The notes under the pieces: model-generated | What the model was told of the DNA's origin: nothing | The model's input: the letters and a program-made list of their open reading frames with translations, nothing else | Database searches by the model: none | Source: Actinomycetospora soli | GTDB lineage: Bacteria; Actinomycetota; Actinomycetes; Mycobacteriales; Pseudonocardiaceae | Assembly: GCF_021026295.1 (NCBI RefSeq) | Contig: NZ_JAJNDA010000010.1 | Span: 62,001 to 126,000 of the forward strand | Direction: 5' to 3' | DNA: 64,000 nucleotides | Part shown: positions 38,594-58,972 of the stretch, piece after piece | Layout: every line of letters begins with the position of its first letter | Numbering within the stretch: position 1 is the stretch's first letter | Made by a program: the position numbers and the translations under genes

Positions 38594-38607
38594 TCCGGAG
38601 ATTCGAG

Positions 38608-43113: not shown

Positions 43114-43123
43114 GAGCCACGCC

Positions 43124-44140
43124 ATGACCGACGAACTCCGCGTCGCCGTCCTCGGCGTCGGCAAGATGGGCGCCTTCCACGTCGACAGCCTGACGCACCG
43201 CACGCGCGGGGCCCGGGTCACCGTCGTCAGCGACTTCGTCGACGAGCAGGCCCACCGGGTCGGCGACCCGATCGGCGCCCGGGTGGTGGCCGACCCGCTC
43301 GAGGCGATCCACGCCGACGACGTCGACGCCGTCGTCCTCGCGAGCCCCGGTGCCGCGCACCACGAGCAGGTCCTCGCCTGCCTCGAGGCCGGCAAGCCCG
43401 TGCTCTGCGAGAAGCCGCTCACCGTCGAGGCGTCCACCTCGCTCGAGGTGTACCGCCGCGAGTCGGAGCTGGGCCGCCGCCTCATCCAGGTCGGGTTCAT
43501 GCGCCGGTTCGACCACGAGTACGCGCAGCTGCAGCGGATGACCGCCGCCGGCGAGTTCGGCGCGCCGCTCATGCTGCACTGTACGCACCGCAACCCCGAC
43601 GTGCCGGACTTCTTCGACTCGCAGTTCATGATCCGCGACTCGGTGGTCCACGAGGCCGACACCGCCCGCTTCCTGCTCGGCGAGGAGATCACCGCGGTCA
43701 GCGTGGTCAAGGGCCGTCCGACCTCGACCGCGCCGGCCGGGACGTCGGACCCGATGCTCGTGCTGTTCGAGGCGGAGTCGGGCGCGCTCGTCACGATCGA
43801 GATCTTCGTGCGCACCGGGGTCGCGTACGAGGTGCGCACCGAGCTCGTCGGCGAGCGCGGGTCGGCGACGATCGGACTGGACCAGAACGTCGTCGTGAAG
43901 CGTCCGGGCGGGACCTGGGGCGGGACGATCACCCCGGGCTTCGTCGAGCGCTTCGGGCAGGCCTACGACGACCAGATGCAGCGCTGGGCCGACGCCGCCC
44001 GCGCCGGGATCGCCTCCGGCGGGGACGCGGTCGACGGCCCGGGCAGCTGGGACGGCTACGCGGCCGCGGCGATCTGCGAGGCCGGGGTGGCGGCCGTCGT
44101 CAAGAACGTCCGGGTGGAGACGGGGATGGAGCAGCGGTGA
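43124..44140 (+). CDS. iolG: Inositol 2-dehydrogenase (Gfo/Idh/MocA family)
   Basis: A 338-residue NAD-dependent oxidoreductase: Rossmann loop VLGVGKMGAFHVDSL near residue 8, EKPLTVEAS (catalytic Lys, near 98), and the substrate segment DSVVHEADTARFLLG with the His and Asp expected for inositol dehydrogenases. QVGFMRRFDHEYAQL and GSWDGYAAAAICEAG closely follow Corynebacterium IolG. It oxidises myo-inositol to scyllo-inosose. It sits 10 bases after the iolE-like gene and overlaps iolH by ATG/TGA. Confidence 0.88.
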   Translation: MTDELRVAVLGVGKMGAFHVDSLTHRTRGARVTVVSDFVDEQAHRVGDPIGARVVADPLEAIHADDVDAVVLASPGAAHHEQVLACLEAGKPVLCEKPLTVEASTSLEVYRRESELGRRLIQVGFMRRFDHEYAQLQRMTAAGEFGAPLMLHCTHRNPDVPDFFDSQFMIRDSVVHEADTARFLLGEEITAVSVVKGRPTSTAPAGTSDPMLVLFEAESGALVTIEIFVRTGVAYEVRTELVGERGSATIGLDQNVVVKRPGGTWGGTITPGFVERFGQAYDDQMQRWADAARAGIASGGDAVDGPGSWDGYAAAAICEAGVAAVVKNVRVETGMEQR

Positions 44141-45021
44141 AGCTCGCCCTCGACGCGCAGATGTTCCACCGGACGACGCCGGTGGTCGACCTGCCCGACG
44201 CCGTCGCCCGTGCCGGCTACCAGTGGATGGAGCTCTCCCCGAAGGAGGACTTCATCCCGTTCTTCGCACACCCGCGGGTGGACTCCGCCACGGTCGCGAC
44301 GCTGCGCCGCCGCGCGGCGGACGCGGGCGTGGGCATCTCGTCGGTGCTGCCGGTGCTGCGCTGGTCGGGGCCGTCCGAGGAGGCCCGCCAGGCGGCCGTG
44401 CGGGCCTGGCGGCGGGCCATCCGGATCACCGTCGACCTCGGCGTCGACACGATCAACACCGAGTTCAACGGCCGGCCGGAGGCGGCGGAGCACGCGGAGT
44501 CGATGTTCCTGCGCTCGTTCGACGAGCTGGCCCCGGACTTCGAGCGCGAGGGCATCAGGCTCGTGCTCGAGCCGCACCCCGACGACTTCATCGAGGACGG
44601 CCACGCGGCCGTCGACATGATCGCCGGGCTCGATCGGGACTGGATCACGTTCCTCTACTGCACCCCGCACACGTTCCACCAGGGGAACGACGCGGCCGGG
44701 ATCATCGCCCACGCCGGGTCCCGTGTGACCAACGTGCACCTCGCGGACACCCTCGACCACACCGCGTCCGGCGGCCTGCGCTACATCGTCAACCCGCCGG
44801 GGTCGACGGTCCGGGTGCACCAGCACGCCCCGATGGGCGCGGGCGAGGTCGACTTCGACGAGGTGTTCGCCGCGCTCGCGACGGCGGGCTTCGACGGCAC
44901 CCTCACCCACTGCGTGTTCGGGTGGGAGGAGCGCGCGCTCGACGTGGTGACCCGCGACCGGGACACGATCACGGCCCTCGTCGGGAAGCACTTCGGCGCC
45001 GTGGCGTGGGAGACGCCGTGA
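44137..45021 (+). CDS. iolH: IolH-like sugar-phosphate isomerase/epimerase
   Basis: A 294-residue TIM-barrel protein whose conserved blocks (DFIPFFAHPR, GISSVLPVLRWSGP, TINTEFNGRPE, LVLEPHPDDFIEDG, ADTLDHTASGGLRYI, NPPG) match IolH of actinobacterial inositol clusters. Its reaction is not firmly established; epimerisation or dehydration of an inosose is assumed. It overlaps iolG (ATGA at 44137) and the next oxidoreductase gene (GTGA at 45018), so all three are co-translated. Confidence 0.87.
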   Translation: MKLALDAQMFHRTTPVVDLPDAVARAGYQWMELSPKEDFIPFFAHPRVDSATVATLRRRAADAGVGISSVLPVLRWSGPSEEARQAAVRAWRRAIRITVDLGVDTINTEFNGRPEAAEHAESMFLRSFDELAPDFEREGIRLVLEPHPDDFIEDGHAAVDMIAGLDRDWITFLYCTPHTFHQGNDAAGIIAHAGSRVTNVHLADTLDHTASGGLRYIVNPPGSTVRVHQHAPMGAGEVDFDEVFAALATAGFDGTLTHCVFGWEERALDVVTRDRDTITALVGKHFGAVAWETP

Positions 45022-46160
45022 CCGGGGTCGGGCTCGTCGGTGCGGGGTGGATGGGGCATCTCCACGCCCGGGCGTACTCCCGGCTGCCGCACCACGTGGC
45101 GCTCGCGGACCGACCGCGGCTGGTCGCGGTGGCCGACGCGGTCGCCGCGGCGGCCGACGACTTCGTGGCGCGCTACGGCTTCGGGCGGGCGACCACCGAC
45201 TGGCGGTCGGTGGTCGACGACCCGGCCGTCGAGGCGGTCAGCGTCGCCGCGCCGAACGGGCTGCACCGCGAGATCGGCGTCGCGGTCGCGCAGGCGGGCA
45301 AGCACCTGTGGATCGAGAAGCCGGTCGGGCTGACCTCGGCCGACACGGCCGCCGTCGCGCAGGCCGTGCACGCCGCGGGCGTCACCTCGACGATCGGTTT
45401 CAACTACCGGATGGTGCCCGCGATCGCGCGGGCGCGGCGACTGCTCGCCGAGGGGGCGATCGGCCGGCTCACGCACGCGCGCTTCCGGCTGCTCACCGAC
45501 TTCGCCGCCCATCCCGACGGCGGGTTGAGCTGGCGGTTCACGCGGGCGCAGGGCGGGTCGGGGGTGCTGAACGACCTCGCCGTCCACGGTGTCGACCTGA
45601 TCCGCTTCCTCGTGGGGGAACCCCGCACGGTCGTCGCCGACGGGGAGCGCTTCATCCCGCGCCGCCCGGTCGTGGCGGCGGGTGCGAGCCAGTACTCGCG
45701 CGGGGGAGACGTGTACGGGGACGTCGAGAACCTCGACTACGTCTCGGTGCTCGGGCGGACCGCCGACGACGTGCTCGTGCAGCTCGAGGCGAGCCGCGTC
45801 GCCGTCGGGGACCAGAACGACTACGGGTTCGAGATCCACGGGACGCAGGGCCTCGTGTCGTTCGACTTCCGGCGCCCGGGGGAGCTGCTCGTGTCGTCCG
45901 GTGACGGTTACGTGGACCAGGCGTCGTCCGTGGTCGCGGCCGCTCCCGGCGACGGCGACTTCGCGCTGTTCCAGCCCGGCGCAGGCAACCCGACGTCGCT
46001 GGACGACCTCAAGGTGTCGGAGGCCAACGCGTTCCTGCGCGGTGTCGCCGGTGGGGAGGTCGCTCCTGGCGCGACGATCGACGACGCCCTCGCCGCGGCG
46101 CGCGTGCTCGACGCGGTCGCGCAGTCGATGGACAAGCGCGGCTGGGTGGACCTGGCCTGA
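45018..46160 (+). CDS. Gfo/Idh/MocA family oxidoreductase
   Basis: A 380-residue NAD(P)-dependent dehydrogenase with nucleotide loop LVGAGWMGHLHARAYSRL and WIEKPVGLTSADT (catalytic Lys near 98). It is longer than iolG and carries an inserted loop (VVAAGASQYSRGGDVYGDVENLDY) typical of inositol-cluster oxidoreductases acting on cyclitol isomers or keto-inositols. The exact substrate is unknown. GTG start inside the iolH stop. It ends the operon before a 12-bp-stem terminator at 46171-46223. Confidence 0.82.
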   Translation: MTGVGLVGAGWMGHLHARAYSRLPHHVALADRPRLVAVADAVAAAADDFVARYGFGRATTDWRSVVDDPAVEAVSVAAPNGLHREIGVAVAQAGKHLWIEKPVGLTSADTAAVAQAVHAAGVTSTIGFNYRMVPAIARARRLLAEGAIGRLTHARFRLLTDFAAHPDGGLSWRFTRAQGGSGVLNDLAVHGVDLIRFLVGEPRTVVADGERFIPRRPVVAAGASQYSRGGDVYGDVENLDYVSVLGRTADDVLVQLEASRVAVGDQNDYGFEIHGTQGLVSFDFRRPGELLVSSGDGYVDQASSVVAAAPGDGDFALFQPGAGNPTSLDDLKVSEANAFLRGVAGGEVAPGATIDDALAAARVLDAVAQSMDKRGWVDLA

Positions 46161-46984: not shown

Positions 46985-47021
46985 GTGGCAGGAACGACGA
47001 GAAGCGTCAGATTCCTGCCAC
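46985..47021 (-). terminator. Hairpin at the end of the LacI gene
   Basis: GTGGCAGGAA (46985-46994) pairs with TTCCTGCCAC (47012-47021), 17-base loop. The LacI stop codon (47007-47009) is in the loop. Sequence words GTGGCAGGAACG and AGCGTC tie it to the hairpin repeat family at 24940 and 8947. Confidence 0.6.
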
Positions 47022-47999
47022 GGCGCCCACCGACGACCGCATCACGACCTCCGGTCGGATCACCACGTCCCGGCGCGCCGTCCGGCCGCCGTCGAGGCGC
47101 TCGCCGATCAGGTCGAGCGTGTGTCGGGTCAGGCCGGGCACGTCCTGGCGGATCGTCGTGAGGCCCACGGGGCCCATGCGTGCCAGCGGGGAGTCGTCGA
47201 AGCCCGCCACCGACACCTGCGCGGGCACGTCGACCCCGGCGCGGGTGAGCTCGGACATGAAGCCGATCGCCGCCTGGTCGTTGAACAGCAGGACGGCCGT
47301 GGGCAGGTCGTCCGCGAGCATCACGCGGGCGCTGGCCACGCCGTCGTCGGCGTCCTTGCCGCCGGCGAGGACGTGCGGCTCCAGCCCGGCCGCCGCCATG
47401 GCCGACCGGTAGCCGGCCTCGCGGTCGGCGGCGATCACCGCGTCATGCCCTCGGACATAGGTGATCCGACGATGGCCGAGCCCGACGAGGTGTCCGACCA
47501 GCTCGGACACCCCCGCGTAGTCGTCGAGGCGCACCACGTCGAGTTCCGCGCCCGGAATCCGGCGCCCGACCGTGACGACCGGGAGCTGCCGGTCGAGGGC
47601 CACGAGCCGCTCGACCGGAGCCTCGGTGCCGATGAGGACCAGCGCCTCGCACCGCGAGTCGAGCAGCGACTCGACGGCCCGCGCCTCGTCGCGGTGCGGG
47701 GTCCGCGGGCCGAGGAGCAGGTCGTAGCCGATCCGGTCGGCCGCGGCGAGCATCTCCTCGGCGAGCTCCGCGTGGAAGGTCGACCGGACCTCCAGCACCA
47801 CGCCGATCATCCGGCTGCGGCGCGACGCCAGCGCGGCCGCGGCGCGGTCGGGTCGATAGCCCAGCCGGTCGGCGGCGGCGAGCACCCGCTCCACCGTGTC
47901 CGCCGAAGGCCCCGGCGCACCACGCATCACCATCGACACCGAGGCCCGCGACAGGCCGACCTCGGCGGCGACGTCCTCCAGACGGATGCGCCGGGCCAC
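47007..47999 (-). CDS. LacI family transcriptional regulator
   Basis: A 330-residue repressor: helix-turn-helix in the first 25 residues (RLEDVAAEVGLSRASVSMVM), hinge, and a periplasmic-binding-protein-like sugar domain (VAGFDDSPLARMGPVGLTTI). It is a close paralogue of the LacI protein at 55031. The GTG at 47999 lies 2 bases after the P450 fusion stop, so it is co-transcribed with that gene. Its likely targets are the TAGAGCGCTCTA palindromes upstream of the P450 and iolE operons; this is inference from proximity and the usual LacI site form. Confidence 0.87.
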   Translation of the reverse strand: MARRIRLEDVAAEVGLSRASVSMVMRGAPGPSADTVERVLAAADRLGYRPDRAAAALASRRSRMIGVVLEVRSTFHAELAEEMLAAADRIGYDLLLGPRTPHRDEARAVESLLDSRCEALVLIGTEAPVERLVALDRQLPVVTVGRRIPGAELDVVRLDDYAGVSELVGHLVGLGHRRITYVRGHDAVIAADREAGYRSAMAAAGLEPHVLAGGKDADDGVASARVMLADDLPTAVLLFNDQAAIGFMSELTRAGVDVPAQVSVAGFDDSPLARMGPVGLTTIRQDVPGLTRHTLDLIGERLDGGRTARRDVVIRPEVVMRSSVGAVAGI

Positions 48000-48001: not shown

Positions 48002-50215
48002 TCAGAGGTCGAGGCGCAGCGACGCGGTGCACGAGCGGGACACGCAGATCATCATGCAATCGTTGCGCGACCGCTCCGCCGCGTCGAGCACCGAGTCGCG
48101 GTGGTCGGGCACCCCGTCGAGCACGCGGGTCTCACAGGTCCCGCAGGTGCCCTCGGCGCACGACGAGACGACGGTCGCGCCCGCCTCCTCGACGACCTCG
48201 AGCACGGACCGCTCCGGCGGCACCTCGAGCGTGACGCCGGTGCGCGCCAGCTCGACGGTGAACGCCTCGGTCCGCAGCGGGTCGCCGACCGGCTTCGGAC
48301 TGAACCGCTCGACGTGCAGCGCGCCCTCCGGCCAGCCGGCGCACCGCTCCTCGACCGCCGCGAGCAGCGGCTCCGGTCCGCAGCAGTAGACCAGCGTGTC
48401 CTCGCGGGGTGTCCCCAGCAGGGTGTCGAGGTCGAGTAGCCCGACCTCGTCCTGCGGGGCCACCGTCACCCGGTTCCCGTAGCGCGACAGCTCGTCGAGG
48501 AACGCCATCGACGCGCGCTGCCGACCCCCGTACACGAGGTGCCAGTCCGCGCCGGACGCGTGCGCGGCGGCGATCATCGGCAGCAGGGCGGTGATCCCGA
48601 TGCCGCCCGCGATGAACAGGAAGCGCCGCGAGCACGCGAGCGGGAAGTTGTTGCGCGGCCCGCGCAGGCGGACCCGGTCGCCGACCTGCAGCGTGTCGTG
48701 CACGTGCCGCGACGTCCCGCGCCCGTCGGCCTCGCGCAGGACGCCCAGCCGCCAGGTCGTCCGGTCCTCCGGCGACCCGCACAGCGAGTACTGCCGCGGT
48801 GCGACGCCGTCGAGGAGCAGGTCGGTGTGCGCGCCCGGCTGCCAGACCGGGAACGACCCGCCGTCGGGACGGCCCAGGGACAGCGTGACGACGCCCTCGG
48901 AGACGGGCTCCTTCCCGACGACGACCGCCTCGAGATCCGAGGCCTCCTCCTGACGACGGGTCGGGGCGGGCGGGGCCGTCGGGCCCGTCGTCCGGATCGG
49001 GAGGTGCTTCCAGACGTACATGTTCGGCGAGCTCGGGTAGAACGTCGGCTCGCCGTCGAGCTCGTAGTCACCGAGCAGCGGCAGCGCCTCCTCGAGCGCG
49101 ATGCGGGCCTCGAGCCGGGCGAGCGGCGCGCCGAGGCAGCCGTGGACACCCTCGCCGAAGCCGACCTGGCGGCCGGGCGGGCGGGTGATGTCGAAGCGGT
49201 CGGGGTCGGGGTAGCGGCGCTCGTCGCGGTTGGCAGCACCCGGGATGAGCACGACGCGCGCGCCCTTCGGCATCGTGACGCCGTGCAGCGTCACCTCGCG
49301 CGACGTGGTGCGGGCGGTGAGCTGCAGCGGGGTCGCCCAGCGCATCGCCTCCTCGATCGCGGCCGGGACGAGCGACGGGTCGGCCTGCAGTAGCGCGCGC
49401 TGGTCGGGGTTCTCGGCGAGCAGCTTGAACAGCGTGCCGGTGAGGCCCGCGGTGGATTCGACGCCGCCGAGGAAGAGGATCGTCATGAGCCCGCTGACCT
49501 CGGAGACCGGCGTGATCTCGTCGGGGACGAACGGGGTGCCGTCGATGTCGGCCGTGACCATCTTCGTGAGCAGGTCGTCGCGGTGCTCGCGGCGCCGCTC
49601 GTTCAGCACGTCGATGAAGTACTGCTGCACGCCGGCGGTCGCGGCCTTGGCCTTCGGCCCGAGGTGCGGCGTCCCGGGGATGCGCTCCTTGAGCTCGTGG
49701 GTCCAGCGCTCGAGCTGGTCGCGGCGGGCGAGCTGCTCGGCCGTCGCGTCGGCGCGGCCGGGGAAGCCCATGAGGTGGAAGAACACGTCGAACGGCATCG
49801 GCCACGCGAGCTCGTCGGCGAGATCGAGCGTGTCGCGGCCCCGCAGGTTCTCGACCAGGCCCCGCACGACCGTGCGGATCCCCGATTCCAGGTTCGCGAT
49901 CCGCCGCGGCACGAAGTAGGGCTGGACGACGTGACGCACCTGGTCGTGCCGCGGGTTGTCCATGCTGCCGATCGATCCCGGCGGTACCTGCTCGAGCCGC
50001 GAGTCGTCGATGTCCATGCCCTCGAAGCTGCGGAACGTGTCGGCGTCGGTGATCGCCGCGCGCACGTCGTCGAACCGCGTGAGCGCGAACCACTGCCGGC
50101 GCTCCGACCAGTAGACCGGCGCCTCGTCCCGCATCCACCGGTACGTCCCGAACGGGTCGGCCGTGTAGAAGGTCGGGTCGAACGGGTCGTACTCGACGGC
50201 GGTGGGTGCGGCCAT
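48002..50215 (-). CDS. Self-sufficient cytochrome P450 (P450-reductase-ferredoxin fusion)
   Basis: A 737-residue three-part enzyme. Residues 1-410 are a P450: I-helix FLGGVESTAG, ExxR in EEAMR, and haem ligand Cys360 in FGEGVHGCLGAPLAR. Residues about 430-650 are a phthalate-dioxygenase-reductase module (RQYSLCGSP flavin motif, GGIGITALLPM, CCGPEPLL). Residues 655-737 are a plant-type 2Fe-2S domain with Cys686, 691 and 694 (CAEGTCGTC) and a later Cys. This is the class VII/CYP116B layout, needing no separate redox partners; NAD(P)H drives monooxygenation. It is the only gene of its kind in the iol island, with GntR- and LacI-type sites upstream. The substrate is unknown; O-demethylation of a methylated cyclitol is conceivable. 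ATG with GGAGGA upstream. Confidence 0.9.
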   Translation of the reverse strand: MAAPTAVEYDPFDPTFYTADPFGTYRWMRDEAPVYWSERRQWFALTRFDDVRAAITDADTFRSFEGMDIDDSRLEQVPPGSIGSMDNPRHDQVRHVVQPYFVPRRIANLESGIRTVVRGLVENLRGRDTLDLADELAWPMPFDVFFHLMGFPGRADATAEQLARRDQLERWTHELKERIPGTPHLGPKAKAATAGVQQYFIDVLNERRREHRDDLLTKMVTADIDGTPFVPDEITPVSEVSGLMTILFLGGVESTAGLTGTLFKLLAENPDQRALLQADPSLVPAAIEEAMRWATPLQLTARTTSREVTLHGVTMPKGARVVLIPGAANRDERRYPDPDRFDITRPPGRQVGFGEGVHGCLGAPLARLEARIALEEALPLLGDYELDGEPTFYPSSPNMYVWKHLPIRTTGPTAPPAPTRRQEEASDLEAVVVGKEPVSEGVVTLSLGRPDGGSFPVWQPGAHTDLLLDGVAPRQYSLCGSPEDRTTWRLGVLREADGRGTSRHVHDTLQVGDRVRLRGPRNNFPLACSRRFLFIAGGIGITALLPMIAAAHASGADWHLVYGGRQRASMAFLDELSRYGNRVTVAPQDEVGLLDLDTLLGTPREDTLVYCCGPEPLLAAVEERCAGWPEGALHVERFSPKPVGDPLRTEAFTVELARTGVTLEVPPERSVLEVVEEAGATVVSSCAEGTCGTCETRVLDGVPDHRDSVLDAAERSRNDCMMICVSRSCTASLRLDL

Positions 50216-50259
50216 CGGGGTCCTCCGGGGATGAAGTGGTGGAGTGGCTCTCCTGGAGC

Positions 50260-50305
50260 TTAGAGCGCTCTAAACGGTGATCACAATACTTTTGTCCGCA
50301 CAAAG
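50260..50305 (-). promoter_or_regulatory. P450 operon promoter with LacI- and GntR-type operators
   Basis: A LacI-type palindrome TTAGAGCGCTCTAA (50260-50273) and a GntR-type site CTTTTGTCCGCACAAAG (50289-50305). Read on the minus strand, the GntR site runs into GTATTGTGA, giving -35 TTGTGA and -10 TAAGCT 18 bases apart, with the LacI palindrome covering spacer and -10. Dual control like that at 42080 is predicted. Confidence 0.7.
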
Positions 50306-50309
50306 CGAA

Positions 50310-50384
50310 GGGCCCGCCGACCGTGTGGTCGGCGGGCCCGTGTGAGCACTGTCCGTGGCGCCCGCCACGGACAGTGCTCACACG
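50310..50384 (-). terminator. Two adjacent perfect hairpins
   Basis: A 22-bp perfect inverted repeat with a 2-base loop (arms 50339-50360 and 50363-50384, ending in GTGGCG/CGCCAC) covers the stop codon of the isomerase gene. Immediately beyond it lies GGGCCCGCCGACC-GTGT-GGTCGGCGGGCCC (50310-50339). Together they separate the isomerase operon from the P450 promoter on the same strand and should terminate strongly. Confidence 0.75.
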
Positions 50385-51157
50385 CCGAACGCACTCTCGA
50401 ACGCGTCCAGCGCGGCGTCGGGGTCGCCGCTGGCCCACCCCTCGAGGCCCACCACTCCCGTGTAGCCCCGCTCGGCCAGGGCCCGCGCGATCGCCGGGTA
50501 GTGGATCTCGCCGGTCCCGGGCTCGCAGCGGCCCGGGACGTCCGCGACCTGGATCTCGCCGACGTACGGCAGCGCCTCGTCGAGCAGCGCGATCAGGTTC
50601 CCCTCGCCGATCTGGGCGTGGTAGAGGTCCAGGTTGAGCCGCACGTGCGGTGAACCCACTGCACGCACCAGCTCGAGCGTGTCCGCGGCCCGCGCGAACG
50701 GGACGCCCGGGTGGTCCACGTCGAGGTTGAGGTTCTCCAGCGTGAACACCCGCCCGGCCTCGGCACCCAGCTCCGCGACCCGGCGCAGGGTGTCGGCGGC
50801 GGTCAGCCACATCCGCGGCGTCACGACCTCCACCGGCACCACCGGCAGTCCCTGCCCGTCGAGCCCGGTGCCGTGCAGGTTGAGGCGCGGGCAGTCGAGC
50901 TTCGCCGCGACCTCGAGCGACCGGCGCGCCGAGGCGAGCAGTTCGGCGATGCCGTCGGGGTCGGTGAGCGACCCGGTGAGGTAGCCGGTCATCGAGGAGA
51001 ACCGGGCGCCGGTGGCCGTGAGGTCGTCGACGTCCTTCGTCGCCCAGTTCCAGATCTCGACGGCGAACCCGCGTTCGTGCAGCCGGCGGACCCGGTCGGC
51101 GAACGGCCGGTCCAGGTACAGCATCTCGGCGCAGGCCGCGAGCTCGAAGGAGCTCAC
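50378..51157 (-). CDS. Hydroxypyruvate isomerase-like TIM-barrel protein
   Basis: A 259-residue sugar isomerase-like enzyme of the Hyi/OtnI type. Signatures: FELAACAEMLYLDRPFADRV at the N-terminus, LENLNLDVDHPGVPF (metal-binding Glu), VRLNLDLYHAQIGEGNL (Asp and His), and GEIQVADVPGRCEPGTGEIHYP (Glu/Asp near 200). It should isomerise an aldose/ketose or a keto-acid sugar derivative. GTG start overlaps the stop of the inosose-dehydratase-like gene (GTGA). Last gene of the minus-strand catabolic operon, followed by the strong hairpins. Confidence 0.85.
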   Translation of the reverse strand: MSSFELAACAEMLYLDRPFADRVRRLHERGFAVEIWNWATKDVDDLTATGARFSSMTGYLTGSLTDPDGIAELLASARRSLEVAAKLDCPRLNLHGTGLDGQGLPVVPVEVVTPRMWLTAADTLRRVAELGAEAGRVFTLENLNLDVDHPGVPFARAADTLELVRAVGSPHVRLNLDLYHAQIGEGNLIALLDEALPYVGEIQVADVPGRCEPGTGEIHYPAIARALAERGYTGVVGLEGWASGDPDAALDAFESAFGV

Positions 51158-52014
51158 GCCAGCACCGAGCGCAGGTGCTCCACCGACGCCGCCACGTCCG
51201 CGACCGGTCCGACGCCGGACGGCTCGTCGTGCAGGATCGTGTCCTGCTCCAGGACGTACCAGCCGTCGTAGCCGCGGGCGGCGAGGTCCGAGAGCACCGC
51301 CGTCAGGTTCACGTCGCCCGACCCGAGCGGCCGGTACATCCCGCGGCCGACCGCCTCGGTGTAGGTCAGCCGGCCGTCCTGCACCTGGCGCGCGAGGGTC
51401 AGGTCGACGTCCTTGAGGTGGGTGTGCGCGACCCGCTCCGGGGCCTGGCGGGTGATGTCGGCCGGGTCGGTGCCGCCGATCAGGAGGTGCCCGGTGTCCA
51501 GGCACAGCCCGATCGACGAGCCCGCGAGCACCCGCTGCACGTCGTCGGTGTTCTCCACCATCGTCCCGACGTGCGGGTGCAGGACCGCCTCGACACCGCG
51601 CGCCGCGGCGACGGCGGCGATCCGGTCGAGGTTGCCGAGCAGCAGCGACCAGCCGGCCGCGTCGAGCTCGGGTCGTGAGTCGTAGCCCGCGCCGCCGGAG
51701 TCGGCGGAGAGCACGAGCGTGCCGGCGTGGGCCGCGTCGTAGCTCGCGAGCAGCGCCTCGACCCCGGGCACCGGGTCGTGGTCCGGCACGTGCAGCAGCG
51801 TCGGGGTGAAGCCGCCGACGGCGTGCAGGTCGTACTCGGCGAGCGTCGCGGCCTTCGCCGCGGCGTCGGCGGGCAGGAACCCGTCGGGGCCGAACTCGGT
51901 GGCCGCGAGCCCGACCTCGCGCATCTCGGAGAGCACGCGCTTCGGCTCGAGCTGGTGGCCCCAGCCGGGGACCTCGCAGACGCCCCAGGAGATGGGCGCA
52001 CCGGCAATCTTCAT
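51154..52014 (-). CDS. Inosose dehydratase-like TIM-barrel protein
   Basis: A 286-residue protein with KIAGAPISWGVCEVPGWGHQ at the start, the typical opening of 2-keto-myo-inositol dehydratases, then EFGPDGFLP, LHPHVGTMVEN, LCLDTGHLLIGGTDP and HTHLKDVD carrying the metal-ligand Glu/Asp/His set. It probably dehydrates scyllo-inosose or a related keto-cyclitol; it complements or replaces the iolE-like gene at 42178. ATG 52014 overlaps the stop of the dehydrogenase (ATGA), indicating coupled translation. Confidence 0.85.
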   Translation of the reverse strand: MKIAGAPISWGVCEVPGWGHQLEPKRVLSEMREVGLAATEFGPDGFLPADAAAKAATLAEYDLHAVGGFTPTLLHVPDHDPVPGVEALLASYDAAHAGTLVLSADSGGAGYDSRPELDAAGWSLLLGNLDRIAAVAAARGVEAVLHPHVGTMVENTDDVQRVLAGSSIGLCLDTGHLLIGGTDPADITRQAPERVAHTHLKDVDLTLARQVQDGRLTYTEAVGRGMYRPLGSGDVNLTAVLSDLAARGYDGWYVLEQDTILHDEPSGVGPVADVAASVEHLRSVLA

Positions 52015-53012
52015 CGCTGTACCTCGTCGATCCGCACCGGACGGTGCTCGTGCAGGGACAGGGTGGCGGCCTCGGCGATCCAGCCGGCGGCCATGGCGTC
52101 GGCGACGGAGCACGGCGTCGGCCGCGTCCCCGCCACGAGCTCGGTGAACGCGGTGAGCTCCGCGCGGAAGGCGGGTGCGAGCCGGTCCATGAAGAACGCG
52201 TGCGGCGTGCCCGCCGGGAAGGTCACGCCGGGCTCGGCCGAGCGCAGCGGCAGCCCGTCGTCGAGCCCGACGGCGATCGAGTCGCGGTCGCCGTGCAGCT
52301 CCATCCGCACGTCGTAGCCGCGCGGGTTGTAGCGGGTGTTGGACACCAGCGCGTGCGAGCCGTCGTCGAGGGTCAGCACCGCGGCCGCCGTCGAGACGTC
52401 GCCGACCTCCGCGAACACCGGGTCGCCCGCGGTGTCGCCGGTGGCGAACACCTCGACGACCTCGCGGCCGGTGACCCAGCGGATCGCGTCGAAGTCGTGC
52501 ACCGAGCAGTCGCGGAAGATGCCGCCGGAGATGCGGACGTAGTCCAGCGGCGGCGGCGCCGGGTCCAGCGTCGTCGCGCGGACGGTGTGCACGCGGCCGA
52601 GCTCACCCGAGGCGACCGCCGCCCGCGCCGTCGTGTACCCCTCGTCGAAGCGCCGCGGATAGCCGATCTGCACCCGCTCGTCGCGGCCCGCGAGCTTCGC
52701 GGCGACGTCGAGTGCGTCGTCGATCCGGCCGGCCAGCGGCTTCTCGCAGAAGGCGGGGAGCCCGGCGTCGACGGCCGCGAGCAGCAGTTCCGGGTGGGCC
52801 GGGGTCGCGGCGGCGATGACGACGCCGTCGACGCCGGCGGCGAACACGTCCTCCGGGGAGTCGACCGCCTGCGCGCCGACCTCGGCCGCGACGGCCGCGG
52901 TCACGTCGGGACGGGCGTCGGTGACGACGAGCTCGTCGACGATGCCGCGCAGCGTCTCCGCGTGGAAGGCCCCGATGCGCCCGAGGCCGATGAGTCCGAT
53001 CTTCACTGCCAT
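52011..53012 (-). CDS. Inositol 2-dehydrogenase-like oxidoreductase (Gfo/Idh/MocA)
   Basis: A 333-residue NAD-dependent dehydrogenase: IGLIGLGRIGAFHAETL, FCEKPLAGRIDDA (catalytic Lys), QIGYPRRFDEGY and GGIFRDCSVHDFDAIRWVTG with the Asp/His of inositol dehydrogenases. It is a second, clearly different inositol dehydrogenase besides the one at 43124, probably acting on another stereoisomer or derivative. ATG with GAAAGG upstream; 7 bases after the SDR gene stop and overlapping the next gene by four bases. Confidence 0.87.
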   Translation of the reverse strand: MAVKIGLIGLGRIGAFHAETLRGIVDELVVTDARPDVTAAVAAEVGAQAVDSPEDVFAAGVDGVVIAAATPAHPELLLAAVDAGLPAFCEKPLAGRIDDALDVAAKLAGRDERVQIGYPRRFDEGYTTARAAVASGELGRVHTVRATTLDPAPPPLDYVRISGGIFRDCSVHDFDAIRWVTGREVVEVFATGDTAGDPVFAEVGDVSTAAAVLTLDDGSHALVSNTRYNPRGYDVRMELHGDRDSIAVGLDDGLPLRSAEPGVTFPAGTPHAFFMDRLAPAFRAELTAFTELVAGTRPTPCSVADAMAAGWIAEAATLSLHEHRPVRIDEVQR

Positions 53013-53019
53013 GTGCCTT

Positions 53020-53781
53020 TCAGTCGTGGGCGCCGGGGACCTGCTGGTCCCAGTCGAGGACCGAGCCGGTGACCACACCGGATCGATCGGAGAGCAGGAG
53101 GACGACCATCTCGGCGGCGTCCTCGGGGGCGGCGAGACGCCCGGCGGGCAGGCCGGCGCCGGCGCGTGCGCGCCAGTCCTCGCCCGCGCCGTGCCGCCGC
53201 TGCACGACGTCCTCGCCCTCGGTGTCGGTCCAGCCGATGTCGAGCTGGTTGACCCGGATCCGGTCGAACCGGTGGGCGTGCGCGGCGTTGCGGGTGAGGG
53301 TCGCGAGGCCGCCCTTCGCCGCGGAGTACGGGCTGAGGTCCGGCGCTCCGCCGCGGGCCGACTCGGACCCGATGTTCACGATCGTGCCGGGCTCGCCGCG
53401 CCGGATCATGTCGGCCACGGCGGCCTGCATCAGGAAGAACGGCCCGCGCAGGTTGATCGCGATGTGCGCGTCGAACAGCTCCGGCGTGGTGTCGAGCAGC
53501 GAGCCGCGGTCGACCAGGCCCGCCGCGTTGACCAGCCCGTCGACCCGTCCGAACTCGGCGACGACCGTGGCGACCGCGGCGCGGCACGCGCCGACGTCGG
53601 CGACGTCGCACGGGACGAACAGCGCTCCGAGGTCGGCCGCGACCTTCTCCCCGTGTTCCCGACGACGGCCCGTGACGGCCACCGACGCCCCCTCCCGCCG
53701 GGCGGTCCGGGCGACGGCCGCGCCGACCCCGGAGGTGCCGCCGCTGACGAGCACCACGCGACCGGCGAGCAGCCCGCTCAC
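53020..53781 (-). CDS. Short-chain dehydrogenase/reductase
   Basis: A 253-residue classical SDR: cofactor motif SGGTSGVGAAVA (residues 13-24), NAAG near 86, catalytic Ser before YSAAK (Tyr/Lys near 152-156). It should oxidise a hydroxyl or reduce a ketone of a sugar- or cyclitol-like compound. GTG start lies inside the stop of the PhyH gene (GTGA overlap). Middle member of the PhyH-SDR-dehydrogenase-dehydratase-isomerase operon. Confidence 0.88.
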   Translation of the reverse strand: MSGLLAGRVVLVSGGTSGVGAAVARTARREGASVAVTGRRREHGEKVAADLGALFVPCDVADVGACRAAVATVVAEFGRVDGLVNAAGLVDRGSLLDTTPELFDAHIAINLRGPFFLMQAAVADMIRRGEPGTIVNIGSESARGGAPDLSPYSAAKGGLATLTRNAAHAHRFDRIRVNQLDIGWTDTEGEDVVQRRHGAGEDWRARAGAGLPAGRLAAPEDAAEMVVLLLSDRSGVVTGSVLDWDQQVPGAHD

Positions 53782-54929
53782 GTGACCACACCGCGTCGTC
53801 GGGACGTCTGGGCCGACAGCGCAGCATCCAGCGCAGAGGGCGACCACCGCTCCCGAACGGCGCGCAGCAGCACGTCGGCGGGCGAGGGCGGGGCGAGGCC
53901 GTCGACGGGCGGGTCCGCGTCGAGGTCGGTCGGGAAGGCGTAACCCTCGGCGGTCGCGGCGACCGCGTTCTCGAGCGAGCCGTCGTCGGGGAGCGAGAAC
54001 AGCGCGGGGAAGACCGCGCGGGCCATGGCGGCCCGGTCGCAGCTCTCCATCGCGCGCCCGAAGGCGGACGAGACCTGGAGCAGGTTGGCGAGCCGGTGGA
54101 CGTCGGTGGTCCGGTTGTGGCCGGCGCCGTGGATGAGCGCGGGGTTGAAGAAGACCGCGTCGCCGGCAGCGAGCGGCAGTTGGACGTGGTGCTCCGCGAA
54201 GTACGTGCGGACGTCCTCGCGGTCGGCGACGAGGTAGCCGTGGGGGTAGGTCTGGGAGTGCGGCAGGTACATCGTCGGGCCGGACTCGACGGGCATGTCC
54301 CCGTGCGCCACCGCGCCCTGCAGCGTGAGCGCGGGCGAGAGGCGGTGGACGTGGGAGGGGTAGCGGGCGGCGCCGGCCGCGTCCATGAAGCCGAGGTGGT
54401 AGTCGCGGTGCGGGCTCTGCGCGGCGCCGCCCGGGTTGACCTGGTTGACCTGCGACGTCACCTGATAGCCCGGGCCGAGCCAGGCCTCGCAGACCAGGGC
54501 GAGCGCGGGGTTCGCGTAGTAGGCGGCGAACACCGCGGGGGCGCGCAGGGCGAGCTTCTCGGCCGCGTTCCAGATGCGGTCGTTCGCGCCGGGCTTCGCG
54601 AAGTGATCGCCCGCGACGGCCCCGGAGGCGCGCTGCTCGGCGATCATCGCGCGGAACTCGGCGGTGGCCGCGTCGAGCACCGGACGCTCGAACGTCCCCG
54701 AGATGACGACGATGCCCGGGCCGTCCAGGAGGGTCGCGACCAGCTCGGTCTGGACCGCGCGCCGGTCGTCGGCGAGCAGGGTGGTCGCGTCGTAGACCGG
54801 CACGCCGGAGCGGATCGCCGCAGCGCGCGGATGGGCGGCCGGGTCGGTGCCGCGCTCGACGTGCGCGCGCAGGTCCCCGACGCGGGCCTCGGCCGGGTCG
54901 AGCCACGTCGGGGCGGCGGTCGACGTCAT
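53778..54929 (-). CDS. Phytanoyl-CoA dioxygenase (PhyH) family protein
   Basis: A 383-residue Fe(II)/2-oxoglutarate oxygenase. The metal-binding HxD is SPHRDYHLGF (near residue 170), the distal His lies in ALIHGAGHNRT, and the Arg following it should bind 2-oxoglutarate. Substrates of the family range from acyl-CoAs to sugars and small natural products; in this operon a hydroxylation or oxidative demethylation of a cyclitol-related compound is possible. The ATG has AAGGAG upstream. First gene of the operon; its promoter carries the 18-bp LacI-type palindrome and a GntR-type site. Confidence 0.83.
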   Translation of the reverse strand: MTSTAAPTWLDPAEARVGDLRAHVERGTDPAAHPRAAAIRSGVPVYDATTLLADDRRAVQTELVATLLDGPGIVVISGTFERPVLDAATAEFRAMIAEQRASGAVAGDHFAKPGANDRIWNAAEKLALRAPAVFAAYYANPALALVCEAWLGPGYQVTSQVNQVNPGGAAQSPHRDYHLGFMDAAGAARYPSHVHRLSPALTLQGAVAHGDMPVESGPTMYLPHSQTYPHGYLVADREDVRTYFAEHHVQLPLAAGDAVFFNPALIHGAGHNRTTDVHRLANLLQVSSAFGRAMESCDRAAMARAVFPALFSLPDDGSLENAVAATAEGYAFPTDLDADPPVDGLAPPSPADVLLRAVRERWSPSALDAALSAQTSRRRGVVT

Positions 54930-54950: not shown

Positions 54951-55014
54951 CCTTAAAGCGCTTTAAGGTGCAGGATGAGTGTCCGCGCTCACCGGATTTC
55001 ATGTCAAGACAAAG
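54951..55014. promoter_or_regulatory. Divergent promoter region with LacI- and GntR-type operators
   Basis: A perfect 18-bp palindrome CCTTAAAGCGCTTTAAGG (54951-54968) lies 22 bases before the PhyH ATG. The GntR-type site TGTCAAGACAAAG (55002-55014) lies 16 bases before the LacI GTG and contains, on the minus strand, a TTGACA -35 for the PhyH operon. The AAAGCGCTTT centre differs from the AGAGCGCTCT of the other two sites, so the LacI protein at 55031 may be specific to this one. Confidence 0.7.
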
Positions 55015-55030: not shown

Positions 55031-55999
55031 GTGCCTCGCCCGAGACTCGCCGACGTCGCCGCCGCCGCCGGCTGCTCCACCGCGTCGGTGTCGCTCGTCC
55101 TGCGCGGTGAGCCGGGCCCGAGCGAGGCCACGCGCGACCGGGTCCTGGCGGCGGCCGAGCAGCTCGGCTACCGGCCCGACCGGGCCGCCAGCCTGCTCGC
55201 GCGGCGTCGCTCGGGGATGCTCGGCGTCGTCACCGACGTGCGCTCGACGTTCCACGCCGAGCTCGTCGAGGAGCTGCTCGACGCGTCCGCGCGGCGCGGG
55301 TTCGACCTGCTCATCGGCGCACGCAGCCCCGCCCGGGACGAGGAGCGGGCGGTGGAGACCCTGATCGACTCCCGCTGCGAGGCGTTGCTGCTGCTCGGCA
55401 CGTCGGGTCCGGCGGAGCGGCTCGTCGCCCTCGACGGGCAGGTCCCCGTCGTCGCGGTCAGCGGCCGGGCGGGCGGCGTCGACGGCGTCCGGGTCGACGA
55501 CGAGCGCGGCACCCGGGAGGCGACCGAGCACCTCCTCGCGCTCGGGCACCGCGACGTGGTCCACGTCGACGGCGGGGCGGGGGAGATCGCGGCCGACCGG
55601 TGCCGCGGCTACGTCGCCGCGATGACGGCGGCCGGCCTGGCGCCCCGCGTGCTGCGGGGAGGACACGGGGAGGCCGACGGTGCGGCGGCCGCCGCCGACC
55701 TCGGCGGGGCGACGGCGGTGACCGTGTTCAACGACCGCGCCGCCGTCGGCCTGCTCGACGCACTCGTGCGCGCCGGGGTGCGGGTGCCGGCGGACGTCTC
55801 GGTCGCCGGGTTCGACGACAGTCCGCTGGCCCGCCTCGCCCACGTCGACCTGACCACCGTCAGCCAGGACGTGCCGGCCCTCGTCGCGAACGCCCTCGAT
55901 CTCGTCGTCGCGCGACTCGACGGCGTCCGGGCGGAGCGCCGGGAGGTCGTGCTCGCGCCGCGGCTCGTCGTCCGGGGCACCACGTCGGCGCCGCCGTGA
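55031..55999 (+). CDS. LacI family transcriptional regulator
   Basis: A 322-residue repressor with helix-turn-helix RLADVAAAAGCSTASVSLVL at the N-terminus and a sugar-binding core (VFNDRAAVGLLDALVRAGVR, VAGFDDSPLARLAHVDLTTV). It is a close paralogue of the LacI protein at 47007 (shared DVRSTFHAEL, ERAVETLIDSRCEAL). GTG at 55031 with GGAGGG upstream is chosen over an ATG at 54968 that would place the operators inside the gene. It is divergent from the PhyH operon and probably represses it and itself. Confidence 0.87.
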   Translation: MPRPRLADVAAAAGCSTASVSLVLRGEPGPSEATRDRVLAAAEQLGYRPDRAASLLARRRSGMLGVVTDVRSTFHAELVEELLDASARRGFDLLIGARSPARDEERAVETLIDSRCEALLLLGTSGPAERLVALDGQVPVVAVSGRAGGVDGVRVDDERGTREATEHLLALGHRDVVHVDGGAGEIAADRCRGYVAAMTAAGLAPRVLRGGHGEADGAAAAADLGGATAVTVFNDRAAVGLLDALVRAGVRVPADVSVAGFDDSPLARLAHVDLTTVSQDVPALVANALDLVVARLDGVRAERREVVLAPRLVVRGTTSAPP

Positions 56000-56009: not shown

Positions 56010-57005
56010 TCAGGAGGCGGCGACCGGCTCCGTCCGCGGCCGCGGCGGGAACCCGGCGGCGGCGTAGACCGCGTCGACCAGCTCGGCCTGGGCCACCGCG
56101 TCGTCGAGGTCGAGCGGGAACGGCGCGCCCTCGCGCAGGTGCGCCCGCAGCGCCTCGAGCTGGTAGGTGTACGTCGAGCGCGTCCCGAGGTGCTCGGTGC
56201 GCTCCTCGCCGTCCACGGTGACGACGATCCGGTCGTCCTGGTGCGGGAGCACCACGTTCAGCGCGGTCGCCTCACCGCGGGAGCCGATCACGCGGGCGGT
56301 GATCGTCCACGAGTCGGCGGCCATGTCGCAGGAGGCCCGTCCGGTGACCCCCGGGGCGAACACGAGGTCCGCCGTCATCGACGCGTCCACCCCCGGCGAC
56401 CGCTCGGTCCCGGAGGCCCTCTCGACGACGGGTTCGGCGCCCGCGAGCCATCGCTGCAGGTGCAGGGCGTAGCACCCGAGGTCCATCAGCGCGCCGCCGG
56501 CGAGATCGAACGACCAGCGCGGGTCGTCGCCGGACGGCGCCGGCATCCGGAACGTCGTCTCGATCCGCCGGAGCTCGCCGAGCTCCGGGAGCAGCGACAC
56601 GAGGCGGCGGGTCACGGGGTGGTGCACGTGGTGGAACGCCTCGACGACCACCACGCCGGCCGCCCGCGCCGCGGCCGCGACCTCCCGGGCCTCGTCTGCG
56701 TTCGACGCGAACGGCTTCTCGACGAGGACGTGCTTGCCCGCCTCGATCGCGGCCCGCGTCCAGCGGCCGTGCAGGCCGTTGGCGAGCGGGACGTAGACGA
56801 CCTCGACCTCCGGGTCGGCGAGCACGGCGTCATAGGTGTCGTGCACCCGCTCGACGCCGTGCTCGGCGGCGAAGGTCTCGGCCCGTCCGCGGTCCCGGGC
56901 GGCGACGGCGACCATCCGGTCGCCCGTCGTCGCGACGGGCTCGGCGAGGGCCACGACCGCGATGCGGGCCGCGCCGAGGACGCCGAGGCGGAGGGGCGAA
57001 CTCAC
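56010..57005 (-). CDS. Gfo/Idh/MocA family oxidoreductase
   Basis: A 331-residue NAD(P)-dependent dehydrogenase: [52 protein letters not shown] (catalytic Lys near 96), [15 protein letters not shown] and [15 protein letters not shown]. This pattern is that of the trans-1,2-dihydrobenzenediol/glucose-fructose-oxidoreductase-like branch, different from the other three members in the window. GTG start inside the stop of the ABC ATPase gene (GTGA), so it is the last gene of the importer operon and probably acts on the imported compound. It is convergent with the LacI gene, only 10 bases away. Confidence 0.83.
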
Positions 57006-57817
57006 CGCTGCAGCTCGTGGGAGAGCTCGGCGAGCTCCTGGCCGCCCGCCATCTCGGCGGTGAGCTCCTCGAGGGAGACCTCGGAGCGCTTCCGGTCGAG
57101 GACCCGCTTGCCCAGCTTCAGGATGATGAAGTGGTCGCCCACCATGTAGGCGTGGTGCGGGTTGTGGGTGATGAACACGACCCCGAGGCCGGCGTCGCGG
57201 GCGGCGGCGGTGTACTTCAGCACCACGCCGGACTGCTTGACGCCGAGGGCGGCGGTGGGCTCGTCGAGGATCAGGACCCGGGCGCCGAAGTAGACGGCGC
57301 GGGCGATCGCGACGCACTGGCGCTGACCGCCGGAGAGCGTGCCGATCGGCTGGTTGATGTCCTTGACGTGGATGCCCATCTTCTTGAGCTCGGTGTCGGC
57401 GATCTCGCGCATCTTCGGGATGTCGAGCGGCGCGAGGGGGAAATTGCCCTTGCGCAGTTCCGAGCCGAGGAAGAAGTTCCGCCAGACCTCCATCAGGGAG
57501 ACCACGGCGAGGTCCTGGTAGACGGTGGCGATGCCGCGGTCGAGCGACTCGCGCGGCGAGCCGAACCGGACCTCGTCGCCGTCGACGGTGACCGTGCCCT
57601 CGGAGTGCGGGTGCAGCCCGGACATGATCTTGATCAGGGTCGACTTGCCGGCGCCGTTGTCGCCGAGGACGCAGGTCACCTCGCCGGCGCGGACGGTGAG
57701 GTCGACGCCCTCGAGGGCGCGGATCGCGCCGTAGGTCTTGCCCACGCCCGCCATCTGCACGAGCGGGGTACCGGCGGTCAGGTCGGCCGAGGCGTGCTCG
57801 GCGATCGTGTCGGTCAT
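57002..57817 (-). CDS. Sugar ABC transporter ATP-binding protein (CUT2, single domain)
   Basis: A 271-residue ATPase: Walker [10 protein letters not shown] near residue 52-60, Q-loop VYQDLAVV, signature LSGGQRQ near 162, Walker [13 protein letters not shown], His switch in [13 protein letters not shown]2 importers often have a double-length ATPase (RbsA); this single-domain form is like FrcA-type systems and would work as a dimer. It is 13 bases downstream of the permease gene. The cargo, by context, is probably inositol or a related cyclitol. Confidence 0.9.
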
Positions 57818-57830
57818 GGTCTCGGTGTCC

Positions 57831-58889
57831 CTACGTGCGCTTCGAGGCGGAGTTCTTGATGTACAGGTTCACGAGCACGGCGAGCAGGAGCATCACGCCG
57901 AGGAAGGCCTTGAACCAGTTCGGGTCCCAGCCGGCGTAGACGATGCCCTGGGTGGTCATGCCGAAGATGAACGCGCCGATGGCGGCGCCGATCGCGGAGC
58001 CGAACCCACCCGTGAGGAGGGCGCCACCGACGACCGCGGCGACGATGTAGATGAGCTCGTTGCCCACGCCGAGGCCGGCCTGGACGGTCGAGAAGTTCAT
58101 CAGCAGGTGCTGCCCGAGGAACCAGGCCATGAACGCGACGCCCATGAACAGGCCGATCTTCACCTTGGCCACCGGCACGCCGACCGCGCGGGCGGAGTCC
58201 TGGTTGCCGCCGACGGCGAAGATCCAGTTACCGGTGCGGGTGCGCAGCAGGAGCCAGGAGGCGATGACGACGAAGAGCAGCCACCAGACGACGGAGGCCT
58301 TCACCGTCATGAACCCCAGCGGGATGTCGCCGGCGAAGATCGCCTTGGCGGAGTCGAACCCGTCGAGCTGGTCGATGTTCGTGGTCGCGACGGTGCCGGT
58401 GATCAGCTTGGTGACACCGAGGTTCACGCCCTGCAGGACGAAGAACGTCGAGAGCGTGATGAGGAAGCTCGGGAGCTTCGTCTTGACCAGCAGCCAGCCG
58501 TTGAGCGCGCCGATCGCGAGCGAGATGACCAGGCTGACGATCACGCCGACCCAGACGTTGAGCGAGAGCTGGTAGGACAGCATCGCCGAGGCGAGCGCGC
58601 TGGTGGTCACCGCGACGCCCGACGACAGGTCGAACTCGCCGCCGATCATCAGCAGGGCCACACCGAGCGCGACGATCCCGATCGTCGAGGCCGAGTAGAG
58701 GATGGTCGAGAGCGCCTCGGGCGTGCGGAACGGCGGGGCGATCGCGAAGAAGAAGACGAAGATGACGACGGCCGCCGCGAACGCGCCGATCTCGGGCCGG
58801 CCGAGGATGCGGGCGCCCAGCGAGCGCTGCACGCGGGCGGGTTCCTCGGTGGTGGTGGGCGGTGGCGGGGTCGCGACGGGAGTGCTCAT
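57831..58889 (-). CDS. Sugar ABC transporter permease (CUT2, RbsC-like)
   Basis: A 352-residue permease with 8-10 predicted helices. The family stretch [23 protein letters not shown] near residues 85-105 and [22 protein letters not shown] near the C-terminus are typical of the ribose/inositol/fructose branch. A cytoplasmic N-terminus of about 35 residues precedes helix 1. It forms the channel for the ATPase encoded next. A 15-bp hairpin separates it from the binding-protein gene, which may lower its expression relative to that gene. Confidence 0.9.
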
Positions 58890-58933
58890 CGCTGGGCTCC
58901 AAGGGGACGGGGGTCAGGCGGGACGACAGGGGA

Positions 58934-58967
58934 CCGGCGCCGGCCCGCGGGTGCGGGCCGGCGCCGG
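58934..58967 (-). terminator. 15-bp perfect hairpin between binding-protein and permease genes
   Basis: CCGGCGCCGGCCCGC (58934-58948), loop GGGT, and the exact complement (58953-58967), 6 bases after the binding-protein stop. An intra-operon hairpin here is the usual device for making more binding protein than membrane components, by partial termination or mRNA protection. Confidence 0.65.
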
Positions 58968-58972
58968 GTGGA

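Follow-up and report, generated by a model that had tools for sequence, protein, structure and literature searches.

The window analysed here is a 64,000-nucleotide stretch of the Actinomycetospora soli genome (G000, 6.52 Mb), corresponding to C1:62001-126000. It encodes a self-sufficient cytochrome P450, in which haem domain, reductase and ferredoxin form one chain, and a PhyH-type oxygenase dependent on Fe(II) and 2-oxoglutarate (2OG), both among genes for inositol (iol) catabolism. The link of the P450 and PhyH to the cyclitol pathway is well supported, and the association with iol genes and the shared sites upstream are solid. Open reading frames were confirmed at the coordinates given in a first-pass annotation, whose gene listing lacked the SDR gene at 53020..53781. 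The two oxygenase genes, their flanking regulators and the shared sites are as follows, in window positions.

48002..50215, minus strand: self-sufficient P450 of 737 residues with a haem domain (about residues 1-405), a flavin/NAD(P)H reductase and a C-terminal 2Fe-2S ferredoxin (Pfam, PDB matches, orthologues)
47007..47999, minus strand: LacI-family regulator A (LacI-A; PF00356/PF13377), starting 2 bp past the P450 stop
53778..54929, minus strand: intact PhyH-type Fe(II)/2-oxoglutarate oxygenase (PF05721, E 1.6e-30, over the cut-off)
55031..55999, plus strand: LacI-family regulator B (LacI-B; PF00356/PF13377), divergent from PhyH, start uncertain (54968, 55001 or 55031)
50260..50273, no strand: LacI-type palindrome TTAGAGCGCTCTAA, 44 bp before the P450 start, conserved in relatives
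54953..54966, no strand: LacI-type palindrome TTAAAGCGCTTTAA, between PhyH and LacI-B
42079..42092, no strand: LacI-type palindrome CTAGAGCGCTCTAA, before the IolE1-IolG1 operon
50293..50305, plus strand: second site TGTCCGCACAAAG, before the P450
42107..42119, plus strand: second site TGTCTGTACAAAG, before the IolE1 operon
33854..33866, plus strand: second site TGTCTGTACAAAG, between a GntR-family gene and iolC

The 737-residue P450-reductase-2Fe2S fusion described in the first-pass annotation is borne out, as Pfam domains occur in the order p450, NAD_binding_1 and Fer2 and the P450-reductase-ferredoxin chains 6kbh and 6laa are matched over the full length. Its description as CYP116B-like stands for the architecture. 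As in the CYP116B enzymes (P450 RhF type, class VII), haem domain, flavin/NAD(P)H reductase and 2Fe2S ferredoxin follow one another in a single chain. The haem domain does not fit the description: it is identical to 6kbh at 115 of 383 aligned residues (30.0%) and to 6laa to the same extent, these being the two chains compared. The reductase part is identical to 6laa at 137 of 315 residues. P450 nomenclature places the threshold at 40% identity or more for a family and 55% or more for a subfamily. Membership of CYP116B was ruled out because the haem domain, 30% identical to CYP116B46, falls under the family threshold. The window P450 also differs from CYP116B in being linked to inositol genes and in having unfused relatives in its own family. 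The closest named matches to the fusion are from Actinomycetospora (94% and 91% identity). In mycobacteria and Enemella, the P450s next to reductases 54-58% identical to that of the window are themselves only some 28-31% identical (L028, L029, L032-L035, L040 and L046, where L numbers denote loci and G numbers genomes).

In five relatives (L018, L021, L041, L090 and L096) the P450 and the reductase are separate genes with a 4-bp overlap, located for example at L018:9980-12210, L021:10013-12258 and L041:9977-12207. Either the fused form probably arose from such pairs or the pairs from a split of the fused form. Phylogenetically, L011 and L091, both fused, nest among unfused relatives, away from the large fused clade. 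Support is 97/93 for the three-row fork of L011/L091 and L096; the branching deeper down is less certain, with long branches flagged. The nesting suggests at least two fusions, or a fusion and then splitting, within the P450 family. The orthologues carry polar, family-specific stretches, G-[MI]-D-[IL]-D-D and W-x-H-x-L-K-x-R, that are absent from seven outgroup P450s. From their position in the chain we take these to be putative substrate loops, in a part of the protein where the model is poor. Foldseek with the haem-domain model placed general CYP125/CYP109/P450T2-type entries on top, at 25-34% identity among the best 50. No entry named as a sugar-demethylating P450 was present among the best 60 of 482 and the best 50 of 1665 matches.

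The sites reported in the first-pass annotation as common to the oxygenases and the iol genes were found at three places each across the genome. The patterns TTWRAGCGCTYWAA, for the palindrome, and TGTCYGYACAAAG, for the second site, were written from the window sites before searching, so that their absence elsewhere in the genome is the fair part of the test. With one mismatch at most, TTWRAGCGCTYWAA occurs at exactly three places in the 6.52 Mb (42079, 50260 and 54953), and the reversed-pattern control gave one place per strand over the whole genome. At up to two mismatches, none of 100 window shuffles reached three matches. Similarly, TGTCYGYACAAAG at one mismatch or fewer occurs at exactly three places (33854, 42107 and 50293; reversed control 0 and 1). 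Within the window it gives four matches at up to two mismatches, a number equalled by 2 of 100 shuffles, and its strength therefore rests on the exact genome-wide matches. With one mismatch allowed, neither site type occurs in the genome outside this cluster, and the P450 and IolE1 promoters each bear both. We infer the assignment of regulator proteins to these sites.

The same arrangement recurs in relatives. The 160 bp upstream of the P450 were scanned in 22 loci with a called P450 start. The palindrome is perfect in 17 loci, has one mismatch in two and two mismatches in L012, and was not found within 160 bp upstream in L006 and L088; the start of the L088 gene is probably called too far upstream. 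The background was 13 of 2000 among 160-mers drawn at random from these loci. With two mismatches allowed, the second site precedes the P450 in 8 of the 22 (background 11 of 2000). In L021, L090 and L094, outside the 22, the palindrome lies before the gene for TIMc, upstream of the P450. TIMc is a 332-residue TIM barrel that recurs near the P450 (L004:6421-7419 and equivalents) in Geodermatophilaceae, Nocardioides and some Pseudonocardia. It has no NCBIfam match at E<=1e-10, and 2zds is its sole PDB match at E<=0.01. In Geodermatophilaceae, a LacI gene and an operon of IolG2-like and TIMb genes are separated by two copies of a different palindrome, CTAGAACGTTCTAG, some of them carrying a mismatch (L003:13358 and 13423; also L005, L009, L010, L011, L088, L089 and L091).

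A scan of genome contigs gave 52 loci, of which 21 were taken as orthologues of the P450 (L001-L018, L021, L041 and L042). The remaining 31 are mostly reductase-only matches or P450s of about 26-33% identity. With profile A1 the orthologues score from E 1e-172 to 1e-249, against 7.7e-91 to 7.8e-101 for the next P450s listed, and the cut gene of G355 scores 1e-119. The window's family has orthologues in 4 of its 249 genomes; within the genus they are found in 3 of 16 genomes, while iolB is present in 7 of the 16. The family of G252 (Geodermatophilus) has them in 19 of 112 genomes and the class in 2 of 394, the window's own included. An iolB over the cut-off is encoded by 20 of the 21 orthologue genomes, compared with 145 of 249 in the window's family.

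Linkage was followed in 30 genomes with a haem-domain match, after the duplicates G249 (=G075) and G255 (=G098) had been dropped and G262 and G269, with a cut haem gene, excluded. The P450 and iolB share a contig in 21 of these genomes, at 1.1-21.9 kb in 20 and at 655 kb in G615. The P450 thus lies within 22 kb of iolB in 20 of 21 same-contig genomes and in several genera. The first-pass annotation had named homologues mainly outside cyclitol clusters as evidence against its proposal; the linkage found is the reverse. It spans Pseudonocardiaceae, Geodermatophilaceae and Nocardioidaceae with differing gene orders. In Pseudonocardia the P450 lies beside GfoL-MFS-iolA, in L013 between iolA and iolB, and in Geodermatophilaceae with TIMb/Gfo-Idh/TIMc. 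In Nocardioides it is 19 kb from iolB with threonate-type genes in between; at L012:12282-17211, Nocardioides bruguierae, threonate kinase/dehydrogenase-like and aldolase-like genes flank the orthologue. As a control, the seven family genomes that hold the next-best P450s were considered: iolB is absent from three, lies on a separate contig in three and is 3.4 Mb away in one.

These data bear on a possible role of the P450 in xenobiotic or secondary metabolism, in which case its place beside iol genes would be accidental. PMC11889516 describes enzymes of the same architecture, CYP116B, that act on aromatics, with 2-hydroxyphenylacetate and alkane oxidation among the published or proposed roles, and G000 gave 73 first-look P450 candidates. 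The iol linkage, however, is repeated across genera and gene orders, the sites are shared, and the next-best P450s were not seen near iolB, so that such a role is very improbable. A chance neighbourhood was rejected on the basis of the genome-exclusive sites, the upstream palindrome in relatives and the P450-iolB linkage.

The PhyH gene opens a run of minus-strand genes that leads towards the P450.

53020..53781, minus strand: SDR dehydrogenase (NF004847, 356 bits, cut-off 240), with PhyH-SDR adjacency also in relatives
52011..53012, minus strand: IolG2, inositol 2-dehydrogenase-like protein of the Gfo/Idh family (TIGR04380, 295 bits, cut-off 355; PDB 3ezy, 4hkt)
51154..52014, minus strand: IolE2, inosose-dehydratase-like TIM barrel (TIGR04379, 145 bits, cut-off 290; PDB 9zmu, IolE)
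50378..51157, minus strand: TIMb, isomerase-like TIM barrel (hydroxypyruvate/2-oxotetronate isomerase-like, below cut-offs; PDB 3ngf, 1k77)
50310..50339, minus strand: hairpin of 13 pairs with a T-rich tail, between TIMb and the P450 promoter

The IolG-like, IolE-like and isomerase-like neighbours listed in the first-pass annotation are all present. The order along the minus strand is PhyH, SDR, IolG2, IolE2 and TIMb, nearly touching or overlapping, followed by the hairpin, the P450 fusion and LacI-A. Four hairpin-type sites were found against 1.5 expected, and the stem of this one is much the longest; the P450 and LacI-A probably form a separate transcription unit. The 2-oxoglutarate oxygenase assignment holds, as the metal triad H174-x-D176...H267 and the 2OG arginine R279 are intact and invariant in 16 homologues. 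The predicted structure is weak (mean predicted local distance difference test score, pLDDT, of 70.5). Foldseek with it gave no PDB match at E<=0.001, and its weak distant neighbours include KanJ and EvdO1.

Close PhyH homologues (E<=1e-60) occur in 11 of 249 genomes of the window's family. All 11 have iolB, compared with 145 of 249 overall (P 0.002 if genomes are independent; G203 and G221 look near-identical). PhyH and iolB are 6-18 kb apart on one contig in seven of these genomes and on different contigs in four. A P450 orthologue is present in only 4 of the 11. PhyH, SDR and IolG2 are contiguous in L110, L111, L112 and L117, the last from a genome (G139) that also has the P450, and PhyH, SDR and IolE2 are contiguous in L113. 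The palindrome precedes PhyH in L110-L113, with one mismatch in L113, and was not found before PhyH in L117, L114 or L115. In L114 and L115 PhyH stands with a different LacI and no adjoining SDR. In L018, the P450, reductase, a TIMc-like gene, PhyH, SDR and IolG2 are co-directional after one palindrome, and L041 has the same P450-to-IolG2 order interrupted by one opposite-strand gene. A TIMb counterpart, 66-75% identical, lies near the P450 in Geodermatophilaceae loci. PhyH, SDR and IolG/IolE form a second module, separable from the P450 because PhyH occurs in iol clusters without it. The tie of both oxygenases to inositol catabolism proposed in the first-pass annotation is upheld, but not their treatment as one unit. 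An earlier claim that the Pseudonocardia loci L002 and L013 lack a nearby PhyH was dropped: L013 is a 14-kb contig, and L002 stops at the GntR gene, whereas in the related genome G139 the PhyH module starts beyond that gene.

An alternative is that PhyH is the demethylase, with the P450 catalysing some other oxidation, either of that cyclitol or of another. PhyH-SDR modules after the same palindrome in iol clusters without a P450 are consistent with this, as is the presence of iolB in all 11 PhyH-positive genomes. On the other hand, the P450 occurs with iol genes and no PhyH within the stretches L021 (22 kb) and G260 (L012 + L086, about 35 kb), whole genomes not having been searched, and direct precedent exists for sugar demethylation by a P450. 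This division of labour is accordingly quite unlikely.

The remaining genes of the cluster supply the core pathway, its regulator and transport.

33062..33817, minus strand: GntR-family regulator beside iolC (named from sequence; a similar gene adjoins iolC in relatives)
33939..40146, plus strand: core iol genes iolC, DeoC/IolJ-like aldolase, iolB, iolD and iolA (named by sequence and conserved order, iolB by profile)
40224..41642, plus strand: MFS sugar/inositol-type transporter (named from sequence; a similar gene in Pseudonocardia P450 loci)
42178..46160, plus strand: operon of IolE1, IolG1, TIM isomerase and Gfo/Idh (profile scores; the Gfo/Idh is levoglucosan-dehydrogenase-like, below the cut-off)
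56010..59944, minus strand: Gfo/Idh with ribose/inositol-type ABC transporter of ATPase, permease and binding protein (named from sequence)

The core iolB/C/D/A set adjoins the P450 region. Its iolB scores 255.9 bits with TIGR04378 (cut-off 205), and iolC, iolD and iolA were named from sequence and conserved gene order. Genes similar to the Gfo/Idh-ABC set are found near PhyH in relatives. ARAGORN tRNA calls at 21404-21491 and 22795-22894 sit inside predicted coding genes (20936-21751 and 21819-22982) and are probably false.

To our knowledge the core Iol pathway contains no oxygenase, and we know of no means by which Iol enzymes cleave a methyl ether. Methyl-inositols are major soluble carbohydrates of many plants. 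The reading favoured here, by analogy with the catabolism of rhizopine and methyl-galactose and at about even chances, is that the P450 fusion, as a cyclitol-specific monooxygenase within the Iol regulon, would act as an oxidative O-demethylase of a methyl-inositol and so feed the Iol pathway. A modified cyclitol would be imported by the MFS or ABC system and relieve LacI/GntR-type repression. NAD(P)H would supply the haem with electrons by way of the fused flavin/2Fe2S reductase, as the architecture of the family implies. The P450 would hydroxylate the methyl carbon of a plant methyl-inositol of the pinitol, ononitol or quebrachitol type, and the hemiacetal would collapse to formaldehyde and free inositol. 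IolG-type dehydrogenases and TIM-barrel isomerases may then convert the free inositol to scyllo-inosose for IolE-D-B-C-J-A. The need of D-chiro-inositol, the core of pinitol, for a dehydrogenase and an isomerase would explain the extra Gfo/Idh and TIM-barrel genes. According to PMC9603128, D-chiro-inositol reaches the IolE substrate through a dehydrogenase plus, in B. subtilis, the isomerase IolI. In parallel, PhyH, SDR and IolG2/IolE2 would constitute a module with its own inheritance, which probably acts on a second modified cyclitol. In this scheme we infer the demethylation, the substrate, the fate of formaldehyde and the role of PhyH; that the substrate is a methyl ether has roughly balanced odds.

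The oxygenases may instead produce inositols by hydroxylating deoxy- or C-methyl cyclitols (quercitols, viburnitol, C-methyl-inositols), with no methyl-ether cleavage. The regulon and neighbourhood evidence is equally shared, and the locus data do not separate hydroxylation from demethylation. PhyH enzymes commonly hydroxylate unactivated carbons, and the distant Foldseek neighbours of PhyH include two enzymes with sugar-type natural products as substrates, KanJ and EvdO1, though weak and not at E<=0.001. Against this, methyl-inositols are the abundant modified plant cyclitols and have P450/oxygenase precedents, and two oxygenases for rare deoxycyclitols would be less parsimonious. Hydroxylation of this kind is considered unlikely.

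Equally doubtful is that the P450 demethylates or oxidises a non-cyclitol sugar, such as a methylated pyranose, and is merely co-regulated with inositol genes. Wider sugar chemistry is hinted at by the levoglucosan-dehydrogenase-like protein and by one 3-keto-glucoside-epimerase match of TIMb, and the threonate-type genes of L012 and the G615 orthologue, placed away from iol beside a LacI gene and a sugar-binding protein, point in the same direction. The G615 run (L116:7134-12518) comprises LacI, sugar-binding protein, fused P450 and an SMP30-like gene and is the sole same-contig exception to iol linkage; its P450 retains the first two acids of G-[MI]-D-[IL]-D-D and the W-x-H-x-L-K-x-R stretch. 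However, the P450 shares each of the two site types with iolC and/or the IolE operon, and in Pseudonocardia L002 only Gfo/Idh, small USP-like and MFS genes lie between the P450 and iolA-D-B-C.

Several observations count against demethylation of a methyl-inositol by the P450. The haem-domain model offers no clue to substrate, and its B-C loop has a pLDDT below 50. Both IolE copies fall below the TIGR04379 cut-off of 290 bits (IolE1 137, IolE2 145), as do both IolG copies below the 355 bits of TIGR04380 (IolG2 295, IolG1 200). IolG1 reaches 256 of the 540 bits required by NF052679, and the whole G000 genome has no TIGR04380 match over the cut-off. The P450 and iolB are on separate contigs in 9 of the 30 genomes (G251, G254, G264, G265, G268, G315, G322, G356 and G357). 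The P450 contigs of G315 and G356 carry iolA, and that of G315, at 554 kb, has other iol genes yet no iolB. The G615 orthologue, in its LacI-sugar-binding-protein-P450 run, is 655 kb from iolB. The presence of iolB in all four P450-positive family genomes is not significant alone (P 0.11), and the counts are not independent events, as a large share of the 30 genomes is closely related. No dedicated formaldehyde gene was identified beside the P450, the neighbours having been only partly scanned against the family library. A candidate alcohol dehydrogenase at L002:7281-8465 is weak (133 of 637 bits) and occurs in one locus, and TIGR03451 gave 50 matches in G000, all below the cut-off and several at contig ends. 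Mycothiol-dependent formaldehyde-dehydrogenase-like gene fragments occur in G000 at C1:3-125, C31:28067-28189, C29:32780-33025 and C25:39063-39308; some lie at contig ends and form equal-scoring pairs, as if a repeated gene had collapsed in assembly.

The rhizopine system of rhizobia, with its MocDEF oxygenase components, uses an oxygenase, a ferredoxin and a reductase as separate proteins, together with the IolE-like MocC and MocA of the Gfo/Idh family. Its likeness to the window, for catabolism of rhizopine (3-O-methyl-scyllo-inosamine) by mocRABCDEF, lies in an oxygenase complex acting with the inositol pathway, as stated in a title (Bahar 1998, via PMC10107442). It differs in MocR regulation and an amino group on the substrate, whereas the window has LacI/GntR-type sites, belongs to Actinomycetota and encodes a P450-reductase fusion and a PhyH enzyme. 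In marine Flavobacteriia a P450 demethylates 6-O-methyl-D-galactose (Reisky et al. 2018, as summarised in PMC10033563). As proposed for the window, the sugar methyl ether is freed as formaldehyde and a standard catabolic route takes over, but that system has a separate ferredoxin and ferredoxin reductase and leads into the galactose route. With the Iol pathway for myo- and D-chiro-inositol the window shares the adjacent core gene set and extra dehydrogenases and isomerases of the D-chiro-inositol kind (PMC9603128), to which it adds two oxygenases.

Among the open-licence PMC titles listed, none concerned a genetically defined bacterial route for methyl-inositols, the rhizopine work being nearest, and none a P450/inositol link or pinitol breakdown. 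The fuller proposal is an undescribed actinobacterial pathway in which two unrelated oxygenases, PhyH and a self-sufficient P450 lineage fused to its reductase independently of CYP116B, share a LacI/GntR-type regulon and each convert a modified plant cyclitol of their own for entry into the Iol pathway; its chances are put at slightly less than even. For a methyl-inositol route the locus supplies genes, regulators and named relatives in Geodermatophilus, Pseudonocardia and Actinomycetospora strains. It also shows a class VII-type P450 that is not a CYP116B in its native genomic setting, within a P450 family known in both fused and two-gene form.

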